This document shows positions 50,690-61,438 of a DNA stretch of 64,000 bases, in pieces. The notes beneath the pieces were generated by a model that was not told where the DNA came from, ran no database searches, and saw nothing but the letters and a program-made list of their open reading frames with translations. The DNA is taken from the NCBI RefSeq assembly GCF_000165395.2, contig NC_010575.1, positions 1,411,001 through 1,475,000 of the forward strand, in the 5' to 3' direction. The stretch is from Babesia bovis T2Bo. Its lineage: Eukaryota > Apicomplexa > Aconoidasida > Piroplasmida > Babesiidae. Position numbers and translations under genes: made by a program. Every line of letters starts with the position of its first letter. Position 1 is the first letter of the stretch.

Positions 50690-52589
50690 ATGTCGACACC
50701 GAATAAGCTTTCAACTCTCCTTGATGGAGATAATTTAACACCTGAAGAGGATACGCTGGCCAATAGTTCAAATGCCTTAGAAAGCGAAGTGGTAGCGGTA
50801 TTAGCTAAGCTGGATCGTGTTGATCTAGCTCAGGGTGGGTGTGCTTTGTTAGCTGATCAATTAACGCAGTGGTTATGGCGCTGGGCGCACATGTCAATGT
50901 CGAACAAGTTATCAAGGATACAGTGCCTCATGTTCTCGAGAAACAGGTGAGTCGTGCTGGCAGTATATAGCATTTAATGCGCAGCACGTCGCTAGCGAAT
51001 CTGAGCAAGAAGCCCTTACGGGCATCAACCTTCTAGGACCGGAAACCTCAGCTGCTACCAACGACGAAGCTGACATGTCGGTAGACGGTGAATCGCAATC
51101 AACATCAGATTATTTCCTACACATCGCTAAATACGCTCCTCTGAGACTTACTCTCGGTGAGCGTAAGTTGATGAGACTGCTTGACAGCACGTTACACGTT
51201 AGCGAGTATACTGATAAAATTGACATTCTGCACGAGGGCAACAAGGCTCGCAAGATTGTACGCGAGATAAAAGAGGTGTGCGCTATCCTTAGTGGTTTAG
51301 CGGTGGCACATAACTACGATGATGGGCAGCGATTGGTTAAAGACAGGGAATACGATGCCAACGCTGAGTTCTTCAGGAGCGTGTTCGAGATCGGAAGGCG
51401 GTATAAAATATTAAACCCTGATAAAATTAGGAACTCCTACGGAAAGCTGATATACTTTTTAATGGACTCCAGGAAGCCGGAAATACAGGAACTATTGAAC
51501 TTTGACTGTGTTGCTCCCGTAAAGACTGTTTTTACACTATTGTCAAGTAAGAGGCGGGGTTTGGAGTTGCTCCAAGACCCGAAGCTTAAGTACGCTACTA
51601 TGGAGATCACACCTGAAGGTAAATCTCGGTATGAGGTACAGCGTGAAATATCGACTAAAGAGGAAGCTGTGAAATACTTGACCAACAAGTATGCGCGTAA
51701 GAAAGGCATTATGGGCATAGAATTTTCGTTCTTGACAAGGCCATTCTCTAGTACACAGGAGGTGTCAGATGATGTCGAGATGACCCCTGACGAGGTGCAA
51801 ACGTGTATATACTCACTGTCAGACCATAACTCCCACTTGAGGGCGTTCCGCCGCCCCTGTGACATCATGATCGCATACCTGAAGGACAATTACAATCCTC
51901 AGGATTCAAACCCTAAGTACAACCTCTCTATTAATGCAGGCTGCGAGGGCTCGAGGTTAAGCCATGGCCACGCTCGTCAGTTTACTTACGTCCTTCAATC
52001 TCTTACTCTATGGAGGGAAATAGCTCATGATATGTTTGCCTTGTGGCATTATGCTGAGGCAGATTTGTTGGACCCGGATAACCCATACAGGCTGAGGAAC
52101 ACCGGTCAGGGGTTGAATCGGGTGCAAGATGGCCACCACGTTGTCAGTGGAATGCGTAAGATACTCTACAGAGTGCAGCAGAAAGTGGGTACCTGGGTGG
52201 GATCGAATATGGTACACCTAGGTGACCACAATGTCCCAAACTCGTTCATGTTCATCGACAAATACACCCAAATACCGCGCATTCTATCGCCCATTGTTTC
52301 GTGTATCGAGAAAATACCAGAATTGTACAAATCAACAGATGCGATGAAGACTTATATTGATACACAGTTCGGAGGGCCCAAGCACCTCAAAATGCTGATA
52401 CTTACAGACTTCTTCAGACATGCCTTCGATGGAAGTGGAGCTGACAACTTCAACGATGCTGGTAGTTGCATTGACGGGCGACTCACATCAGCATGGAATT
52501 GGTGTTCCAAGATCGAGAAGAAGGCATACTTCCCCGTCTTCCTACTCACATCGTTCTGCGGTTTTGACGGCAGATTCGGTGAAAGCTAA
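50690..52589 (+). CDS. UPF0652 (DUF2009) family protein
   Basis: Conserved eukaryotic protein of unknown biochemical function. Three exons (50690-50834, 50870-50946, 50985-52589) encode 608 residues. The short middle exon was placed by phase; it reads VVMALGAHVNVEQVIKDT and continues to LEKQ. Family-typical stretches include YAPLRLTLGERKLMRLLDST, HVSEYTDKIDILHEG, KARKIVREIKEVCAILSGL, FEIGRRYKILNPDKIRNSYG and NVPNSFMFIDKYTQIPRIL. It is soluble, with no signal peptide. The N-terminal about 130 residues are acidic and lineage-specific. Confidence 0.85.
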
Positions 52590-53992: not shown

Positions 53993-55117
53993 ATGGATGA
54001 GGAACTCAAGATAGTTGACGTCTGGTCGGATAACTTAGAAGATGCATTCGAAAGAATAAGAGATGTACTGGAACGATACCCATACGTCTCCATAGACACG
54101 GAGTTCCCAGGTATCGTTGCCAAACCCACGACATACCAAGAAGATTACAATTACCAAACCGTAAAGTGCAATGTAGATCTGCTGAAACTAATACAACTAG
54201 GTCTGACATTTGCTGATGCTGATGGACAGACGCCTAGTGGAGTATCAACATGGCAATTCAACTTTAAGTTTGACCTGCAGCGCGACATGTACGCCTATGA
54301 CTCTATTGAACTACTCAAACAAAGTGGAATAGATTTCGAGAAACACCAGCGCAAGGGTATAGACGTGGCACACTTTGGGGAGCTGATTATAGCTTCGGGT
54401 CTTGTGATGAATGAAGATGTAGTTTGGGTCAGCTTTCATGGAAGCTATGACTTTGCATATGTCCTGAAATTACTTACATGCACCACACTACCGACAAATC
54501 AATCTGATTTCTTCGATTTGTTACACGATTTCTTCCCTTCGCTTTACGATATCAAGTACTTGCTTGACGAACGCTCAATCAAGTTGACGAGCAGGAGTAG
54601 TCTACAGAGGATCGCTGAACATCTGGATGTAAAACGAATAGGTCCACAACACCAGGCAGGAAGTGATAGCCTTGTAACGTGCAGAACTTTCTTTAAATTG
54701 ATGCAAAGGTACTTTGAGAACAAACTGGACGATGAGAAGTACCAGGGTATCATATACGGACTAGGTAAAACATCGGCAAGATTGTACGCAGATGGTAAGA
54801 GCGACGGTCTATACAGTACACCATCATATCCAATCGGAGCTCCTTATGCTAACGGGGCTGCGAACGTCAAATGGGGACCTGATATGCAACAGCATCATGT
54901 ACAAACCACGCTCAACCCAGGAATTGTGAACGCTAAATTGCATACCACGACTTCAGGAGCGGTCATTTTAAACTCGTCGGGGTCTAACACTCTAGGGGAC
55001 GTAGGAAGCCCTATGGGCACCACGGTATTGCCGTCAAACGTTACCCTAGTAAACAGCGCTGCTATCAACAACATGAACGAAATCAGCTTTTACGATGCAC
55101 CACACTACAATCAGTAG
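53993..55117 (+). CDS. CAF1: CAF1/POP2-type mRNA deadenylase (CNOT7-like)
   Basis: Catalytic deadenylase of the CCR4-NOT complex, which shortens mRNA poly(A) tails in the cytoplasm. Single exon, 374 residues from the ATG at 53993. DEDD-type active-site residues are visible in YVSIDTEFPGIV (D, E), VSFHGSYDFAYVLK (D) and HQAGSDSLVTCRTFF (D). The nuclease domain ends near residue 265, followed by about 105 low-complexity residues rich in Gly, Ser, Thr, Asn and Val that animal CNOT7 lacks. The region upstream of the ATG is open in frame but has no other ATG. Confidence 0.93.
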   Translation: MDEELKIVDVWSDNLEDAFERIRDVLERYPYVSIDTEFPGIVAKPTTYQEDYNYQTVKCNVDLLKLIQLGLTFADADGQTPSGVSTWQFNFKFDLQRDMYAYDSIELLKQSGIDFEKHQRKGIDVAHFGELIIASGLVMNEDVVWVSFHGSYDFAYVLKLLTCTTLPTNQSDFFDLLHDFFPSLYDIKYLLDERSIKLTSRSSLQRIAEHLDVKRIGPQHQAGSDSLVTCRTFFKLMQRYFENKLDDEKYQGIIYGLGKTSARLYADGKSDGLYSTPSYPIGAPYANGAANVKWGPDMQQHHVQTTLNPGIVNAKLHTTTSGAVILNSSGSNTLGDVGSPMGTTVLPSNVTLVNSAAINNMNEISFYDAPHYNQ

Positions 55118-55291: not shown

Positions 55292-55643
55292 TTAGTCAGA
55301 CTTGCTTTTATTGATGATATCGTATCGGCGAATCTCGTCATCGCTTTTAGGGTATGCCGTGACTGCCATACGGCACGCCTCCAAACACTAAACAGTATGT
55401 AGACATCTGTATATTACTTACTGAAAACTTCTTCACATCGTCGTAATCCAGATACTCTATCTTTGAGGGTGCCGGAGGGTTGTTAGGCCCAGAAATTGGA
55501 CGAGGAAACATGTTATTACATCTAGATTCACAACCCTTGGCCAGCATCTTGTATGTTATCTCCACGCATCCAGCCATTTTCATGCCAATCAATATAGCTA
55601 AAACAGCTATCCATCTAGGGCAAAGCAATCTCTGTAAATTCAT
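55292..55643 (-). CDS. Small secreted CX3C protein A, 105 aa
   Basis: Not recognised; member of a local three-gene group. Exons 55643-55422 and 55387-55292 (34-nt intron, phase 0). The N-terminus is a signal peptide (PRWIAVLAILIGMKMAG). The mature part has a first pair CESRC, a proline-rich spacer (PRPISGPNNPPAPSK), and then, starting with the first base of exon 2, a second pair CLEAC. The C-terminus is charged (SDDEIRRYDIINKSKSD). Cys spacing suggests a two-helix disulfide hairpin, which is inference. It is on the opposite strand to B and C. Confidence 0.6.
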
Positions 55644-56023
55644 CTTGATTTAGTATAAATATAACGATGTCAAGGATATTTAACCAATGAGGCATTGATG
55701 GTTCTATATCTGAAGTTTAATCCAAGGGATATTCCACTGGGATATATAGCATCTATAATGCAACAACAATGCTACGACTACGGAAGTATCGCTCTAATGA
55801 TTAGAGCAAATATAAACAGTATATGGTAAGGATAATGTACTCTTTATTTTAGTACTCTAAAAACGCAAATGATAATTAGTGGTCACAAAATACTAATATC
55901 ATGGTATATGAAACATCCGTTGAAAGATCTTTCAAAGAAAAGATCCAAGGAATATCCAATTCATCATGGAAACGCAGTGCAGTCTTATACAATATACATC
56001 TATTCCACAAATCATTATAAAAG
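55644..56023. other. AT-rich divergent promoter region of CX3C genes A and B
   Basis: 380 nt shared by the divergent small secreted genes A and B. AT-rich; no further reading frame. Confidence 0.5.
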
Positions 56024-56275
56024 ATGGCATTTAAAGCAAGTGTAAAACGACTCTGCCTAGGATTGGCTGTTTTGGCCTATATGGGCATCGGAGCCGAAGC
56101 TAATATTTTCGGATACTTCAAAGGCATATGTGACGATGTTTGCAAGCAGTGCAAATACGACTGTGAGGCAAAGTACAAGGCGGGTACTTTCAAAAGATGG
56201 ATGGTACGTTATAGTCCAGCATAATTCATTACACCTCAGTGCAAAGGTAACTGCAAGCTGCTTACGAAGAAGTGA
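56024..56275 (+). CDS. Small secreted CX3C protein B, 71 aa
   Basis: Exons 56024-56203 and 56240-56275 (36-nt intron, phase 0). The signal peptide is RLCLGLAVLAYMGIGAEA, after a basic start. The mature protein is tiny and cysteine-rich: CDDVCKQCKYDC gives two CX3C pairs two residues apart. Exon 2 starts exactly at a third pair, CKGNC, and ends LLTKK. The intron position before CX3C is the same as in A and C. Strongly basic mature protein. Confidence 0.6.
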
Positions 56276-56917
56276 TATTGACAAGTGTAGGCACCGTCTA
56301 AATACAATAGAAGCTGTAAACAGTAATAATTATTTTTAATCTATCATAATATCGAAAACGTTTCATAAAATTAATGTATATGCTAATAGGCATGGTTACA
56401 ATGGCTACTTTATATCTAATGTTCAACATATGTTATATCAACTTAGTGAGTAAATCAGTATAAAACGGCTTATTTCAGCTGTATTACAAAGTTTATCAAA
56501 GTGTTATAAACAATGGGTTAATAGCATATTTGTAATGTCGTATATCCTGTATTACAAATATAAGACATATATTATGATAAGTGTATAATATATCTCTAAT
56601 ATCATCTAATAACAACACTGCTTATGATCTAGTGTTGCTTATTCAAACTTTAGATAATATAATGTCAACCTTCATTGGAAGTGAACTTTTATCGGCAAAT
56701 TTCAGTAAGATGTCTTTTTTGTTGTTTTATGGTAGTCATTGCTACACAAATATATTAAATTGCTCGACTAAGTCATCAGTAAAGACATTTAACAAATACT
56801 GTGGATCACAGGAATTTTCTGAAAGGAATTTCTGAAATCAAAATAAGATCATTAGGTATCCAGTCACTTATTGATTATTTTTGAGATATACAAACCACGT
56901 ATATTACATTTAACAAG
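56276..56917. other. AT-rich intergenic region between CX3C genes B and C
   Basis: About 640 nt, very AT-rich. An 84-codon frame (56581-56835) lacks an ATG at its start, has no signal peptide and no CX3C pair, and was not accepted. Confidence 0.5.
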
Positions 56918-57203
56918 ATGTACCTCTTTAGCGCACTTGTTGGCTGGTTTGCTTTATTTGTTGGTAGCTCATTCGGTATTACTGACCTGCGCCTTCGGCA
57001 ACAATGCATTGAGAAGTGTTTGGTAAACCACAAGGCAAAATTCATGAGGCCAATGCATAGGCTTATGGTATGTTTTAGATTGAAAAGTAAACATTGATCA
57101 GTGCAAAATAAGCTGCAACCGGAGGCATGGACAAGCATTTGACACAGCGGAACATGCCTTACATCCCGCTTTTAACGGCCTAGATGGCCTCATGAGAGGG
57201 TGA
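56918..57203 (+). CDS. Small secreted CX3C protein C, 83 aa
   Basis: Exons 56918-57067 and 57102-57203 (34-nt intron, phase 0). The signal peptide is MYLFSALVGWFALFVGSSFG. The first pair is CIEKC in a basic helix (DLRLRQQCIEKCLVNHK). Exon 2 begins exactly at the second pair CKISC and runs on to a His/Gly-rich tail (EHALHPAFNGLDGLMRG). It shares architecture and intron position with A and B, although the rest of the sequence has diverged greatly. No membrane anchor besides the signal peptide. Confidence 0.6.
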
Positions 57204-58008: not shown

Positions 58009-61000
58009 ATGTTATACCGCGCTGCTTTAGGATACCCTAGTTATCAAGTTTGTACAATAGTGTTATTGCTTATCGCATGGTTCATTAATCATATCCATCC
58101 AACAGTTCGATATGTTGAAGCTCTGTCTCTTCGTCATGTAGTATCCCATAATAATTCAGTACTTCCCGGATATATCTCGTGCATATCACAGAAAAACAAC
58201 GCAAAGTCAACACGTCAAAGAATCCAGGAACTATACCTAGAAGATAACGACAATGGCTATCCATCAGGCTCTGGCCTATTTGGTGGCTTGTTTCGTGGGC
58301 GGAAGTTTTATAACAGAAGTGAGAAACGGAAAGCTGGAAGAATGGGTCAAGAATACTTTCAAATGCGCCCAGAAAGTCCTCCATGGATAACGGAGGATTT
58401 TGGCGGTGTGCCTAATCTACCTCATAGAACACCAATAGCGCTTTCACGAGGCCCGGTGGACGAAGAGTTCCTTGAAATGCGGAAGCGCGGTATACCTCAC
58501 TCTATGCTAAAGGACTACTACATGTACCGAGATGAATATGAAAGTCGCACTAATTCACGCAGTGAGGTGTTCCATCCGATATTCCGACGTAGTCCAGAGG
58601 ACAATAATCTATATCTCTATGGTCAGGGGGTTGCAACAAGGCCATCGTTTGAAATGCTTAATGAAGATGGAGTCTTGACGACTGATGAATTAGACGCGGG
58701 TAGGAACATGGTCTAGTAATATAAAATATACAGATGATGAACATCTTAAAAAAGCACTCGAGATTCGGAAAAGTTATAAAGGAAGCGACCGTATATGCCA
58801 AATAATGCTTGCAACCTTGAAGGAATACAACGATGCCAATTTAAAACCTTTGTTACAAGAGCCTGCACCGGAAGGCGAAGAGGTAGACGACCCGATGTTT
58901 AGACGCTCGTTCCTGGTCAATGAAGACGGATCTCCTTATTGGCTCAATGAGTGGAACCGTGAATACCTAAAAGGTAGGGAAGGCCTAAGTGAAAGGGAAC
59001 TGATTGACTACGACAATATGTGGTACACTCACCTGGAGAAGCTAGAGCAGCGTTATGGCATGCTACTTCCTGGTGGTGGTGATTTAGATGATATAATGCA
59101 ATACTTCGAGACAGTTGGCCAAGGTGATCTATCATTAACCAGGTCTAGTATACGTCAACCCGGTGGGCTGCGAGTTGCCATTGGCAACAAAGTGCTCAAG
59201 ACAAGGTGGTCTGAAAACATTCCTCCAGTTTTACTAGAACTGCTCATGAAGTACACCCTGATGGACCAATTTAAATCATTCAAGAAAATGAATGCGAGGG
59301 AGCAACTTTTAAACATGAAGGCAGACGCTTTGAAATCATGCAATCAGATGATAATGAACCGTTTGATTCGAGAACGCGTTTTACGTAATGAAGAGAAGAA
59401 GCGTTTGGAGTACATTAAGTTCTTGTAGGTCATTAATATGGCTATACCAATGTCTACAGACACCATCGGAGGAAAGTGATACACAAAAGCCGTATTACAG
59501 GACAGCCAAACATACCATACTGGTTATGGGAAGAGTGCTGGCACCGAAAAGATGATATGATTCAAGATACTATAGTGGAGATACTGCACCAGGTTAAGGC
59601 TGTTGAGCCAGATGCTGATGTTGCCGAATTGACCAGGGGCACAGTGGAGCACATGAAGTCACCCAAACTGTTAGGCACTAAGTTCGATCGCCAGTTAATA
59701 CTTGAAAATGACATGGCGGGCCATGTAGACGTTTTGGAATCATACATAAAGAAACATAGCCAAGGTGCTGAATCTGGTAAGATATTGTCCGTTGGATCAA
59801 TATTGTTACAGAAAATGAGGAAACTACCGATGCACCAAATAAAATCAATGACGAAACCATTGATGGGATTGACTTGCCCCTGCCGCTAGGATATTACTTC
59901 CGTGACATGATATCATTTGATAAGTTCGAAAAGGCTTTCGAGGACTTCAACATGGAATGCTTCGGCAGGAAGGGTTGTGGCGTGAGGGTGGGACAGTTGG
60001 TCAAGGGCGTTATAGAGGATGTAAGACCTAAGCGGCTGTTGGTGGATATACATACTTCAAAACTGGCAGTCATGTACTTGAGTGATTTCTTCAGGAGTCC
60101 TAGAGAGGTGCCATCTGGTGGATTCACAAAGGTGTTCCAAAAAGGTGACGAGCTGTATTTTGAAATCGTAAACAAGTTGGGAAATGATATACGTCTATCG
60201 ACGCGGCGCTTACAGGAAATGTATAGTAAGCGTGATATATACAGGAAGCATTTCGAAAACGAAATATTTAAAGTACGGGCCTTGCAAAGGTACAGCCAAG
60301 GTGTCTTGGTGCAGTACCAGGGTGACGATGTTGTTGACATTAAGAACTATAAATGCCCGGAGAATCCTGGTGGCCTGGAGAACATTGCATTCATTCCATT
60401 GGATCAATTGGATAACCAATATCTGAGCGATACCCAGTTAATAAGGTTAGATATTATTGGGAAAGTCCTGCCAGTGTTCATATCGGACTGGGCAGTATGT
60501 GCCGGAGTTCCACTGGTGTCAAACACTGAGGCTATAAAAAGGCTGCCATTAGGCCATATAAAGCCTGGTGATAGAATACGGGCTAAACGGTGTATGTACG
60601 GCAAGGATGCTGTATGGTTAGACTTGGGGAAAACCATAGGCACCCTGTCAGTCATGGACATGAGCCCAGAAGATTACCAGAAGCACAAACTTGGGGACGC
60701 CACTATTATATATGCTGAAGTAAAGAATGTACATATGGTAAGTAGTGTCCCGGACCTAACATTAGCTATACAGGTTATGGGCTATGTAGAATTGACGACC
60801 AAATTCAGCAGCGAAGGCAATAAAACGAACGAATGGATTGATCGGCTGCATAGTGATCCTGATCCTGTGCAAACGTTTAACAAAAAGCTGGCTCACGAGA
60901 AGGAGCTTGGTAATGAAATGATACCGAAGGATATGACTAAATTAAATTACGTACACCCTATCGATCAACTGCCGTCAATGATAGTCTCGGAGAACTCGGA

Positions 61001-61438
61001 ACCTAACTTGCCTTTCATGAAGCCGGACGAATCAATTGGGTTTGTTTTGATAGTACGTAATTACAAACCTACAGATTGCACAAAGTGCCTATAAAGTGGG
61101 ACTTCACACCAACGGCAGCTGTAAAAAATCCCGAAGATGAAGTTAATTATGCATATCATCAGTACCGCTGGGAAGTACTTACCGAAAATGGTTGGGAAGT
61201 CATAATGCCAGAAGAACAACGCATCCTTAACCGTGCGAGATTTATGAACGATGAAGTCATACACTACAACATAGGATCTAGTTCGTACCGTGCAGACCTA
61301 GTGGAGATGATTCGTCAGAACCTGACTGAAGGCATGGAGCAACCCTTGCGTAATGACGCTGTGTTACCCCTGGATGAAGTGGAACTGAGACACACTAGAG
61401 GATTTATCGATATAGACTTTGATCCCGGTGCTGTCTAG
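58009..61438 (+). CDS. Secretory-leader S1-domain RNA-binding protein, 1096 aa, probable apicoplast
   Basis: Five exons (58009-58699, 58734-59424, 59460-59776, 59812-61039, 61075-61438), introns 34-35 nt. The N-terminal hydrophobic segment YQVCTIVLLLIAWFINHI is followed by a Ser/Asn/Lys-rich stretch, a bipartite apicoplast-type leader. Residues about 90-620 are helical and charged without a known domain (YWLNEWNREYLKGREGLSER, IPYWLWEECWHRKDDMIQDT). Two S1-like OB folds follow: GVRVGQLVKGVIEDVRPKRL and IKPGDRIRAKRCMYGKDAVW. The last 100 residues (RWEVLTENGWEVIMPEEQRI) are novel. S1 proteins of plastids act in translation or RNA processing; the exact role here is unknown. Confidence 0.75.

Follow-up and report, generated by a model that had tools for sequence, protein, structure and literature searches.

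Three adjacent two-exon genes of Babesia bovis share an intron position at a CX3C cysteine pair and may form an old family of small secreted proteins

The window analysed here is a stretch of 64,000 nucleotides of the Babesia bovis T2Bo genome (contig NC_010575.1, positions 1,411,001 to 1,475,000 of the forward strand), and coordinates are counted from its first letter. At 55292-57203 it carries three adjacent two-exon genes, A on the minus strand and B and C on the plus strand. In each of them a phase-0 intron, of 34 nt in A, 36 nt in B and 34 nt in C, abuts the first Cys codon of the last CX3C pair (CLEAC, CKGNC and CKISC, respectively). The two cysteines of a CX3C pair lie one helix turn apart. 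A and B are divergent, with 380 bp between their start codons, and C lies downstream of B. There are three CX3C pairs in B; the spacing between pairs is 32 residues in A, 13 between the last two pairs of B and 16 in C. The features are:

55292..55643, minus strand: gene A, 105 aa, annotated as hypothetical protein BBOV_III006832
55422..55643, minus strand: exon 1 of gene A, putative signal peptide (codons 1-26, cleavage by eye) and CESRC (codons 38-42)
55388..55421, minus strand: intron of gene A, 34 nt, phase 0, GTAAGT..TAG; same splice in the annotated protein
55292..55387, minus strand: exon 2 of gene A, starting with CLEAC; 23 of 31 residues identical in Babesia sp. Xinjiang
55644..56023, no strand assigned: interval of 380 bp from the start codon of A to that of B, putative shared promoter
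56024..56275, plus strand: gene B, 71 aa, annotated as putative integral membrane protein
56024..56203, plus strand: exon 1 of gene B, putative signal peptide (1-26, cleavage by eye), CDDVC (36-40) and CKYDC (43-47)
56204..56239, plus strand: intron of gene B, 36 nt, phase 0, GTACGT..CAG; retention leads to an in-frame stop
56240..56275, plus strand: exon 2 of gene B, CKGNCKLLTKK and then a stop
56918..57203, plus strand: gene C, 83 aa, annotated as putative integral membrane protein
56918..57067, plus strand: exon 1 of gene C, putative signal peptide (1-20, cleavage by eye) and CIEKC (30-34)
57068..57101, plus strand: intron of gene C, 34 nt, phase 0, GTATGT..CAG; retention leads to a stop
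57102..57203, plus strand: exon 2 of gene C, starting with CKISC

The spliced products of A, B and C are each identical to an annotated B. bovis T2Bo protein (100% identity, 100% coverage). The description of three adjacent genes with phase-0 introns of 34-36 nt ending at the last CX3C pair, given in the initial annotation, therefore stands, as the coordinates and the annotated proteins agree. The same annotation had regarded the locus as easy to miss; all three genes are already in NCBI/UniProt records, so the locus was not overlooked. The cluster is real, structurally well defined and already annotated. B. bovis introns are short on average (mean 60 bp; PMC5081931), and the small size of the introns in the cluster is therefore not striking by itself. 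As re-annotation of the genome split BBOV_III000410 into BBOV_III000410 and BBOV_III000412 (PMC9806345), the tag BBOV_III006832, which also ends in 2, suggests that gene A was added at re-annotation, and RNA reads probably supported the added model. BBOV_III0068 tags are absent from the main text of PMC9806345 and PMC7701181, and the open-access literature searched holds no description of the cluster. The statement that no described family has this layout was borne out: none was found in open-access papers, in Pfam or in NCBIfam, which covers bacterial and archaeal families.

The cluster is adjoined by an open reading frame for a CAF1-family ribonuclease (53993-55117; Pfam PF04857, E 4.9e-25), and a protein of the non-canonical E2 ubiquitin-conjugating DUF2009 family is encoded at 51075-52589 (E 1.7e-191). 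On the other side, the plus-strand open reading frames 58009-58716, 58805-59428 and 59907-61094 (235, 207 and 395 aa) had no Pfam match at E <= 0.001. They are possibly exons of one or more genes, and the first of them has, by eye, a hydrophobic N-terminus.

The genome of 8.23 Mb was searched for the pattern GTANGT-N18-34-YAG-TGY-N9-TGY, with the reversed pattern as control. The pattern matched 22 times and the control 19 times. Three of the 22 matches fall within 1.75 kb, at the A/B/C cluster, and at the control rate about 5e-5 clusters of such density are expected genome-wide. At the other 19 places no CX3C was found in the frame read back from the donor (by eye, up to 110 residues each). 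GTGNGT donors gave 18 rows, two of which are overlapping starts at one place, against 14 for the control, and none of them had an upstream CX3C frame in a scripted test. A dispersed repeat is suggested by four near-identical pattern matches (GTATGTATACTTACCGTTCCAC...; loci L003, L005, L007 and L008), which are spread over contigs C1, C2 and C3.

The window was also scanned on both strands for products of up to 140 aa with a hydrophobic N-terminus, at least two CX3C pairs and a GT..YAG intron of 25-60 nt, whatever its phase, without any rule on the intron position. Only three starts were returned, those of A, B and C, with four models that obey the exact intron rule; the fourth stems from an alternative donor in gene A, which with the same acceptor would define an intron of 49 nt, and the annotated gene A protein uses the 34-nt intron. 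In 40 dinucleotide shuffles of the window the scan found 33 starts altogether, with 2 exact models; the averages of 0.8 starts and 0.05 exact models per shuffled window compare with 3 and 4 in the real one. When the 19 background loci, selected because they hold the pattern, were read with any GT donor and a loose hydropathy cut, six gave at least one model and three an exact-rule model (L009, L014 and L020), the N-termini of which are not convincing as signal peptides. As exact-rule models turn up in three of these 19 loci, a single gene of such a layout is not compelling; the weight of the case lies in the clustering of three and in the match to the annotation, and in no single gene.

Conservation differs between the genes. 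A protein search with gene A returned two relatives, BXIN_1242 (P0004) of Babesia sp. Xinjiang and BaOVIS_007070 (P0005) of B. ovis, compared here as proteins, and none beyond these two. The mature chain of A is identical to that of the Xinjiang relative at 51 of 79 positions with all four cysteines kept. Counted by position, identity is 4/26 in the signal peptide (7 with the aligner's gaps), 28/48 in the rest of exon 1 and 23/31 in exon 2. The four mature cysteines and the 32-residue pair spacing are kept in all three species. The B. ovis record, perhaps an incomplete gene model, begins at a Met within the mature part and is missing the signal-peptide region present in the other two species. 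For B and C, only self-matches were found among 5.8 billion proteins; since this search requires shared 5-residue words, fast change of the two genes is possible. At E <= 10, protein searches of the organism's own genome with the three genes returned nothing but the genes themselves. Fast sequence change had been proposed for all three genes. For A this does not hold, as its mature part is kept in two other Babesia species and what its sequence indicates is constraint; for B and C, which have no detected relatives, it may apply. The sequences had also been called nearly unalignable outside the cysteine pairs and signal peptides. This is correct for A against B or C, where no similarity above shuffles was seen (862/1000 and 679/1000 shuffles reach the score), and it fails for B against C, which align weakly (21/1000 Cys-fixed shuffles reach the score).

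All three genes encode hydrophobic, signal-peptide-like N-termini without a second hydrophobic segment, in agreement with the initial annotation. The best 10-residue mean hydropathy at the N-terminus is 3.04 in A, 2.38 in B and 2.39 in C, and beyond the N-terminus the maximal 15-residue mean is 0.71, 0.23 and 0.03, respectively. Signal peptides are generally cleaved after small residues at -3 and -1, and we set the cleavage sites by eye by this rule; with these sites the net charge of the mature chains is +1 for A, +7 for B and +6 for C. The hydrophobic N-termini with no further hydrophobic segment, together with the break in conservation at the predicted cleavage site of gene A, suggest signal peptides that are cleaved off. 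The longest uncharged N-terminal run is 11 residues in A, 13 in its Xinjiang relative and 22 in C, and by its length the run in C leaves a membrane anchor possible.

In AlphaFold2 models of A and B the cysteine pairs lie on separate helices, with low confidence (mean pLDDT 59.9 and 67.6). Foldseek searches with these models gave nothing at E <= 0.001 (best E 6.0 for A and 1.2 for B). By sequence, B reached PDB entries at E 1 at best and C at 0.88, and a gene A profile matched no PDB chain at E <= 10. Gene A has no match in Pfam. Several candidate family assignments were rejected: DUF2521 for B (Pfam E 0.0056, below the cut-off with 17.2 against 25 bits), Leuk-A4-hydro_C (0.19) and FraC (0.34) for C, both below the Pfam cut-off, KdpA for one relative of gene A (Pfam, 0.034), and TatA for B (NCBIfam 0.076, below the cut-off). 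For the other four proteins nothing was found in NCBIfam, a set of bacterial and archaeal families.

The best explanation, to which we give about an even chance, is that A, B and C constitute a small, old tandem family of secreted helical hairpins with a CX3C pair on each helix. The shared intron phase and site at the last CX3C pair, where each gene offers 212-314 possible intron sites, and the adjacency of the genes argue for one family, as does the finding that for two donor types no such layout was detected elsewhere in the genome. Gene structure and position are what assign A to the family, and its common ancestry with B and C is presumed. The products would enter the secretory pathway by a signal peptide that is encoded in exon 1 and then removed. 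Exon 1 would also supply the first helix, which bears one CX3C pair in A and C and two in B, and the second helix would have its pair at the very start of exon 2. Once the signal peptide is off, disulfides formed by oxidation in the ER (C1-C4 and C2-C3) would connect the pairs and fix the chain as a helix-loop-helix hairpin; the models behind the hairpin reading cover A and B. Gene A would retain a conserved job in several Babesia species, and B and C would be cationic, strongly diverged copies that may act outside the parasite. The products would also leave the cell, and an action of B and C on host or tick is our guess. Against this explanation stand the lack of similarity of A to B or C above shuffles, the weak models without a Foldseek match at the threshold used, the internal start of the B. 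ovis record, which hides any signal peptide there, the fit of gene A to a mitochondrial import consensus, the annotators' integral membrane label for B and C, and the long uncharged run of C.

Plant alpha-hairpinins offer the closest comparison for the hairpin layout. They form a CX3C-Xn-CX3C helix-loop-helix in which n of the 4C motif is 4-20, and their precursors carry a signal peptide, with the cysteines sometimes the sole conserved residues (PMC11591084). Two disulfides and an antimicrobial or inhibitory activity further characterise the family. With n=16, C lies inside the range, as do the last two pairs of B with n=13, whereas gene A with n=32 lies outside it. The family is described from plants in PMC11591084, and what it has in common with B and C is the layout; B and C appear to be built like alpha-hairpinins, and we claim no membership.

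If the introns are retained, the frame of A extends to 98 residues, whereas those of B and C end after 66 and 59 residues, and in any of the three the last CX3C pair is lost by a stop or a frame shift. As retention of any of the three introns has this effect, splicing could act as a switch, and the cluster could be an apicomplexan's own family of secreted, disulfide-locked hairpins with the intron between the halves of the lock, in which splicing decides between a closed hairpin and an open chain; we regard this as very improbable.

Three rival readings were considered. Gene A, perhaps with B and C, might encode a twin-CX3C protein of the mitochondrial intermembrane space with its N-terminal stretch in the inner membrane. 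Twin CX3C is the defining motif of the small Tims (PMC3759932). The signal consensus for import into the intermembrane space given in the same paper fits A (YKMLAKGC) and its Xinjiang relative (YKMLATGC), with Ala counted as hydrophobic, but neither B nor C; the annotated B. ovis protein begins too late for this comparison. Conservation of gene A across species would fit as well. Erv1 and homologues of the small Tims are present in apicomplexans, in which Mia40, however, cannot be identified (PMC6115763). Unlike the small Tims, however, A, B and C have signal-peptide-like N-termini, and at Pfam E <= 10 there was no match for A and no Tim family for B or C. The failure of the gene A profile to match a PDB chain also speaks against this reading, as do the uncharged N-terminal runs of A and its Xinjiang relative, which are short for a membrane anchor, and the poor conservation of the first 26 residues of A beside a conserved remainder. 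On balance we hold a mitochondrial protein to be quite improbable, though still a contender for gene A.

It also seems unlikely, though slightly less so, that only B and C are tandem duplicates and that A is unrelated, its intron meeting a Cys codon by coincidence. The failure of A to align with B or C, its wider pair spacing (32 against 13 and 16) and its opposite strand would be expected under such a history. The exact agreement in intron site, phase, signal peptide, CX3C pairs and adjacency would not, and the lack of an upstream CX3C frame at the other 19 pattern places in the genome argues against it too. The third reading, in which the parasite releases B and C as fast-evolving effectors into red cells or the tick, we rate somewhat higher, while still considering it doubtful. 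It draws on their signal-like N-termini, small cationic mature chains and lack of detected relatives; for gene A an effector role is weakened. RxL/RxxL motifs, listed for several but not all confirmed exported B. bovis proteins (PMC9477259), are absent from the mature chains of A, B and C (one RMAL occurs in the Xinjiang relative of A), and the locus lies far from the contig ends (1.466 of 2.593 Mb), both of which count against the effector reading. The SmORF proteins of B. bovis likewise have a signal peptide and no membrane segment and are set apart from A, B and C by description: in PMC9477259 they are an exported multigene family listed with RxL/RxxL, whereas here there is one cluster of three without the motif.

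Gene structure can record ancestry after protein sequence has lost it, and the A/B/C cluster looks like such a case. The order of signal peptide, CX3C, phase-0 intron and CX3C provides a search rule for small secreted genes of piroplasms. Gene A, present in three Babesia species, is a concrete target for localisation, and B and C are candidate species-specific secreted factors.
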